Positions 12,312 to 13,404 of a DNA stretch of 64,000 bases are shown one piece after another; position 1 is the first letter of the stretch, and every line of letters starts with the position of its first letter. A program made the translations under genes and the position numbers. The stretch is from Methylococcales bacterium. Lineage in GTDB: Bacteria > Pseudomonadota > Gammaproteobacteria > Methylococcales > Methylomonadaceae. Under the pieces are notes generated by a model. That model was not told the DNA's origin. It was given only the letters and a program-made list of their open reading frames with translations, and did not search any database. The stretch spans positions 1-64,000 of the forward strand of contig JAPLRP010000090.1 in NCBI GenBank assembly GCA_026399095.1, in the 5' to 3' direction.

Positions 12312-13388
12312 ATGACCTTATTAAAGCTGGATATTCACGCTGTTAGAAATATCGTTAAAGAATCAATTGAGCCAACCTCATCTATTAATTTTTTTTATGG
12401 TGAGAATGGAAGTGGTAAAAGTGCAGTTATTGAGGCTATTTTTATCCTAGGTCGTGCCAGATCATTTCGTTCCACAAATATTAAATCTGTTATTAATTTT
12501 GAGCAGAGTAACTTAATAGTTACTGCTCAAACTCTTCAACCTAATGGCTCCTCTATCTATTTGGGTGTTCAGTTAGATGGAAAAAATTTTTGTTGTCGCA
12601 TCAATCAACAAACCATTCAAAATAGATCTGATCTTGCTTATGCTTTGCCATTACAAATTATTCATCCTAAAAGCTTTGAATTACTTGATGCGGGACCACA
12701 ATATAGACGTGAATTTTTAGATTGGGGTGTTTTTAACGACAATGATAAATTTATTTCCTCATGGCGTAATTTCAAAAAAGCACTATCTCAACGAAATTCA
12801 TTATTAAAATCAAAAGATACTGCCTATATTAATGTCTGGGATAAAGAACTCGTTAAATACGGTACAATAGTTGATGAATTTCGCCATCTTTATCTCCATA
12901 AGTTTAAGTCTGTATTTCTCAGTATCCTTAATCAATTCTTAACGATTGATAATGTTGAGATTAAACTTATAACTGGCTGGGATAATAATATTGGCTTACA
13001 ACAAGCATTAGATCAAGATCGTAATAAAGACCTTCGTTATGGGTTTACTCATAGTGGACCGCATCGTGCTGATTTACAAGTAGTTATCAATAAAAGGTTA
13101 GCACGGGATTTTGTTTCGCGCGGCCAATTAAAATTATTTGTTATGAGTTTAAAGCTTGCACAAATGCAGCTACTTTCAAGGGTACAAAGTAATATTGGAT
13201 GTTTCTTGATTGACGATTTTTCGGCAGAGTTGGATATTCCTAACCGCGCTAAATTATTACACTTTTTATCTAAAATGAACTGTCAGGTGTTTATTACAGC
13301 AACTACAATATCCGATTTTGGTGATTTGCAAAATATAAATAACTATAAAATGTTCCACGTGGAACATGGCAATATAAAGCAAGTGTAA
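12312..13388 (+). CDS. recF: DNA replication/repair protein RecF
   Basis: Walker A GENGSGKSAVIEAI; RGQLKLFVMSLKLAQ; between dnaN and gyrB. Confidence 0.97.
   Translation: MTLLKLDIHAVRNIVKESIEPTSSINFFYGENGSGKSAVIEAIFILGRARSFRSTNIKSVINFEQSNLIVTAQTLQPNGSSIYLGVQLDGKNFCCRINQQTIQNRSDLAYALPLQIIHPKSFELLDAGPQYRREFLDWGVFNDNDKFISSWRNFKKALSQRNSLLKSKDTAYINVWDKELVKYGTIVDEFRHLYLHKFKSVFLSILNQFLTIDNVEIKLITGWDNNIGLQQALDQDRNKDLRYGFTHSGPHRADLQVVINKRLARDFVSRGQLKLFVMSLKLAQMQLLSRVQSNIGCFLIDDFSAELDIPNRAKLLHFLSKMNCQVFITATTISDFGDLQNINNYKMFHVEHGNIKQV
13351..13366. promoter_or_regulatory. parS: parS centromere site 1 (inside recF 3' end)
   Basis: Perfect palindrome TGTTCCACGTGGAACA, matching the known bacterial parS consensus. 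Confidence 0.93.
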
Positions 13389-13404
13389 TGTTCCACGTGG
13401 AACA
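13389..13404. promoter_or_regulatory. parS: parS centromere site 2 (immediately after the recF stop)
   Basis: Second identical TGTTCCACGTGGAACA. Confidence 0.93.

Follow-up and report, generated by a model that had tools for sequence, protein, structure and literature searches.

In Pseudomonas aeruginosa, the parS1 and parS2 sites are located within recF (PMC5521831, PMC3909081), and both parS1 (TGTTCCACGTGGAACC) and parS2 (TGTTCCACGTGGAACA) were shown by ChIP-seq to be bound by ParB (PMC5098823). Inactivation of parS1-3, singly or jointly, causes no obvious growth defect, and a defect appears when all four sites are lost (PMC5098823); intragenic parS sites of this species have been mutated in such a way that the protein was left unchanged (PMC4368675). 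The canonical parS sites of B. subtilis, Caulobacter and Myxococcus are also 16-bp palindromes near the origin, where ParB is loaded with CTP, and a related palindrome, the Noc binding site (NBS), is bound by a ParB paralogue. We know of no in-frame pair of parS sites within recF in B. subtilis, Caulobacter or Myxococcus.

We analyzed a stretch of 64,000 nucleotides from a Methylococcales bacterium (assembly GCA_026399095.1, contig JAPLRP010000090.1), hereafter the window. An initial annotation had recognized in it two perfect parS sites 38 bp apart, one of which was encoded in the recF C-terminus and the other of which began directly after the recF stop codon. The relevant features, all on the + strand, are as follows:

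9568..10884, + strand: dnaA, marker of the replication origin (ORF list), ~2.5-3.8 kb 5΄ of the parS pair
12312..13388, + strand: recF, 358 aa, which hosts site 1 (TIGR00611, E 9.8e-97; RecF structures in the PDB match)
12730..12745, + strand: position of the presumed ancestral mid-recF parS, now lost; codons 140-145, now VFNDND; 621 bp 5΄ of site 1
13351..13366, + strand: predicted parS site 1, coding in the recF frame, codons M-F-H-V-E-H, exact TGTTCCACGTGGAACA
13389..13404, + strand: predicted parS site 2, intergenic, directly 3΄ of the recF stop codon, exact TGTTCCACGTGGAACA
13434..15848, + strand: gyrB, the 3΄ neighbor (ORF and gene order), with its start codon ~30 bp past site 2

The annotated coordinates of both 16-mers were exact, and the distance of 38 bp is correct from start to start, the intervening gap being 22 bp; site 2 indeed begins on the base adjoining the TAA of recF (13386-13388). 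The pair is located in a dnaA-dnaN-recF-gyrB cluster (ORF list), <4 kb from dnaA, which served as a proxy for the origin. The palindrome TGTTNCACGTGNAACA, by which the parS of chromosomal ParABS systems is recognized, was thus present in two exact copies, and a search across the 2,771,051-bp genome (94 contigs) with one mismatch allowed found no third. Since only 0.0004 exact copies would be expected from the base composition, a chance origin of the two copies was ruled out. In this AT-rich genome, the codons of site 1 are minority choices within their families: codon use in a set of 11 long window ORFs gave 15% for TTC, 29% for CAC and 13% for GTG, and a joint probability of ~0.004 when GAA is included.

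A single chromosomal ParB above the cut-off (E 3e-59) was identified in the genome on contig C47, a different contig from that of the parS pair, where the gene order is rsmG, parA and then parB. All three ParB domains (ParB_N, HTH and C-terminal) were found. In an alignment to Caulobacter ParB (6t1f), residues R155 and G183 of this protein were equivalent to Caulobacter R173 and G201, which are reported to be absolutely conserved in ParB proteins that bind parS and altered in Noc (PMC7383237). Whereas Noc has Q and R at these key positions, the ParB of this genome has R and G, and it therefore belongs to the parS class. The parS identity that had been proposed for the 16-mers is supported by the exact consensus, the presence of parA and parB genes and the proximity of dnaA. 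All sequence characteristics of parS that we examined were found in the two 16-mers, which would probably be bound by ParB and function in segregation in this host. We consider it very probable that they are the parS sites of a chromosomal ParABS system, that site 1 carries a dual code and that the pair derives from a class-wide recF with two sites. According to this explanation, ParB dimers would load at parS, close on the DNA with CTP and slide outward, and ParA would move the ParB-DNA complex such that the origin region segregates first; at site 1, the DNA selected by ParB would double as the code for RecF MFHVEH.

The initial annotation had suggested aligning RecF C-termini to determine whether MFHVEH follows the presence of parS. 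We sought RecF in an even sample of Gammaproteobacteria and read 89 loci, almost every one of which came from a separate family. The majority of these RecFs contained two parS-like sites that share a reading phase. One is near position -40 from the stop codon and the other ~621 bp before this C-terminal site. The mid-gene site follows FLDWG and reads (V/L/M)-F-H-V-(E/K)-(H/Q/P/R); both places spell xFHV(E/K)(H/Q/P), and xFHV(E/K) was present at the mid place in 76 of the 89 RecFs. The parS1/parS2 pair of P. aeruginosa resembles the pair in the window in its consensus, its recF host, its number of sites and its proximity to the origin, the in vivo ParB binding being that of P. aeruginosa (PMC5098823, PMC5521831, PMC3909081), and the final C of its parS1 fits the mid-gene ...FHVEP form found in the class. 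However, in the family of the window only the C-terminal site is intragenic, and its partner lies past the stop codon at 38 bp rather than ~621 bp. The location of parS within P. aeruginosa recF was known before. In the literature searched, we encountered no account of two such sites per recF across the class, of the peptide that they impose or of the replacement in methanotrophs (mention in earlier parS surveys is possible), and a search of the literature on dual coding and parS found nothing relevant.

The exact parS codons CAC, GTG and RAA were used in 74 of 76 mid-gene and 69 of 72 C-terminal xFHV(E/K) motifs, compared with 6.1 and 6.6 expected from codon use elsewhere in the same recF; in this respect, the proposed association of MFHVEH with parS was borne out. 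The Glu codon was GAA in 16/16 and 14/14 cases in recF genes with >60% GC, and the His codon was CAC in 23/24 and 18/19 cases in those with <42% GC. When 143 scorable RecF codon columns were ranked by synonymous entropy without supervision, the lowest seven were exactly the parS-fixed codons (0.08-0.24 of the maximum entropy), and the eighth column had a value of 0.63. The Phe codon, which falls on the degenerate Y of parS, was an even mixture of TTC and TTT and thus unconstrained, and E/K swaps were located exactly at the degenerate R (RAA). Taken together, the codon fixation, the free Phe codon and the position of the E/K swaps indicate selection acting on the DNA.

These codon data bear on the possibility that FHVE(H/Q) is a functional RecF motif and that the parS-like DNA is its by-product. 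The F at the mid site is invariant in 89/89 RecFs of the class, and a C-terminal strand of the type K-M-F-x-V-E-x-G is present without parS in E. coli, as would be expected of a protein motif. However, the codon fixation exceeds what the amino acids need, and a charge reversal from E to K is tolerated, whereas CAC almost never changes to CAT. Moreover, the identical site 2 is intergenic, FHVE is absent from the mid place of RecFs outside the class, and the H and E codons drift to CAT and GAG once V is lost, as in VFHSEP (GTA TTT CAT TCG GAG CCG) and LFHAEP (with GAG). We therefore regard this explanation as extremely improbable; the codon data and the synonymous entropy exclude a protein motif as the cause of the parS-like DNA, and FHVE in RecF should not be taken as a functional motif. 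The E. coli strand (KMFTVEKG) also qualifies the claim of the initial annotation that the site 'forces' MFHVEH: the His, the codons and the choices between E and K and among H, Q and R are set by parS, but this type of strand occurs without it, and 'forces' is too strong a word for the C-terminal site.

Selection on the DNA is also consistent with the structural context of the two copies. In the structure that AlphaFold predicts for L074, a RecF with both sites (mean pLDDT 95), the mid copy ends a helix (129-143) and the C-terminal copy lies in a strand (348-353); the model thus predicts that one peptide fills two unlike structural roles. A segregation signal at the DNA level would in this way shape a protein, with the same pentapeptide in two structurally unlike places of the repair ATPase RecF in most of the class, and the parS sites of recF offer a direct test of whether non-coding constraint or protein function lies behind 'conserved' residues. 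Concerted variants were also observed: the genomes of G157 (L151) and G084 (L096) carry TGTTTCATATGAAACA and TGTTCCACATGGAACA, respectively, at each of the two recF sites and at no other position, and in each case V was changed to M at both RecF places. The altered parS cores are CATATG in G157, CACATG in G084 and TACGTA/CACGTA in G091 (L162). These pairs are possibly natural shifts of ParB specificity, and the concerted variants of G157 and G084 make such ParB/parS shifts open to testing.

ParB was found above the cut-off in 100 of 104 genomes of the class, and a correlation between parS and the absence of ParB would thus be based on four genomes; we relied instead on the drift of codons where a site had been lost and on the comparison with E. 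coli. Some members of the class that possess ParB contained neither recF site, and some of these had parS elsewhere (G113, G118 and G128), which indicates that parS can also reside outside recF. In one genome, G109 (L128), no parS was found with one mismatch allowed, the motif was missing from both places of recF, and the ParB match was weaker (E 1.9e-35); this species may have lost or replaced its chromosomal par system.

Neither recF site was found in any of the RecFs that we read from outside Gammaproteobacteria in the same phylum. On a RecF tree built without the motif columns, a quick tree with weak deep branches, presence in the class ancestor required 13 versus 15 changes for the mid site and 12 versus 14 for the C-terminal site with equal costs for gains and losses, and it would be favored more if gains are rarer than losses. 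These sequence-based reconstructions are suggestive of ancestral presence of both sites. In E. coli MG1655, the corresponding RecF codons are degenerate, with TGC TTT CAC AAC GAA CCC (CFHNEP) at the mid place and ATG TTT ACC GTG GAA AAA (MFTVEK) at the C-terminal place, and Enterobacteriaceae lack chromosomal par genes (PMC3909081). It is somewhat probable that the ancestor of Gammaproteobacteria (GTDB) had two in-frame parS sites in recF, that the peptides which they imposed persist and that E. coli RecF bears the decayed imprint of a centromere after the loss of ParAB.

RecF relatives with named records were MAGs of Methylococcaceae, Methylococcales and Crenothrix, which assigns the window to a gammaproteobacterial methanotroph. 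The parS consensus was present in 53 of 61 relatives, with no match in a reversed-sequence control. In six genus members, neither parS nor RecF gave a match, which may reflect incomplete assemblies at the origin locus rather than loss. Barring one copy with a single mismatch in L254, the C-terminal site was invariant across 33 genus and family loci. In most family members, among them those of genera g1, g2 and g14, the second site starts on the base adjoining the recF stop (+1), and in g3 (L254) it starts at +7; it reads TGTTTCACGTGAAACA in L253 (g14), and in one clade it has decayed to TGTTTCATGTGGAACA. The mid-gene place reads VF(N/H)D/N in this family with free synonymous codons, including that of V. 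Given the degenerate mid-gene copy, the most plausible interpretation of the window pair is an inherited coding parS together with a replacement at the stop codon. The older arrangement, shared across the class, would have comprised in-frame parS sites at codons ~140 and ~350 of recF. The methanotroph family would then have lost the mid-gene site by decay and gained a new one just past the recF stop codon, an order of loss and gain that we infer. Such a replacement would free the middle segment of RecF and retain two sites adjacent to the origin; the pattern of loss and replacement itself is visible within one family. At the recF-gyrB junction of L238 (G023), four parS sites lay within ~140 bp, which seems to be the outcome of a tandem duplication of the pair with a unit of ~85 bp.

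A further possibility was that the two palindromes pair in the recF-gyrB transcript, and that a long hairpin controls termination, decay or gyrB translation. The predicted fold of the RNA from positions 13335-13440 (-32.8 kcal/mol, z -5.7) does contain an 18-bp stem between the two sites. However, such folding is expected of any duplicated palindrome, the sites in the class are mostly ~621 bp apart, and the decay of a single site in one clade shows no compensation. The + strand also has no U-run, and a search of this strand for an intrinsic terminator, i.e. a stem followed by a U-run, gave no match. We therefore consider a role as an RNA element highly improbable. We also considered whether, in addition to the parS role, recF-gyrB expression is tuned by ParB binding to site 2, which lies 30 bp 5΄ of gyrB. 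An excess of ParB lowers the expression of genes neighboring parS1-4 in P. aeruginosa, including gyrB, but loss of ParB or parS in the same species gave no rise in expression beside the intragenic parS1/parS2 (PMC5521831), and transcription of Caulobacter gyrB was unaffected by insertion of parS nearby (PMC5815017). Such tuning is unlikely, and effects of ParB on expression are possible at high ParB levels.

Two minor observations concern the neighborhoods of these loci. The genes mnmG-rsmG-parAB are frequently located beside mnmE; in this genome parAB is on a different contig, and the region near mnmE (positions 1-5200 of the window) contains an integrase-like ORF (4428-5150, Phage_integrase) and several short ORFs. 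Between parA and parB on C47 (L163:1640-2059 in G000), there is a short ORF of 139 aa. Its counterparts, found in ten further parB loci of g1, measure 83-148 aa, and none was found in L039, which belongs to another family. No HTH or dimerization domain was found in the ORF. It carries the sequence RGLGRGLEALL of the ParB N-terminus, and its C-terminus (EAExLxxLIDEFE) is similar to the stretch that closes the N-domain of ParB; this ORF may encode a ParB-derived regulator of ParA.
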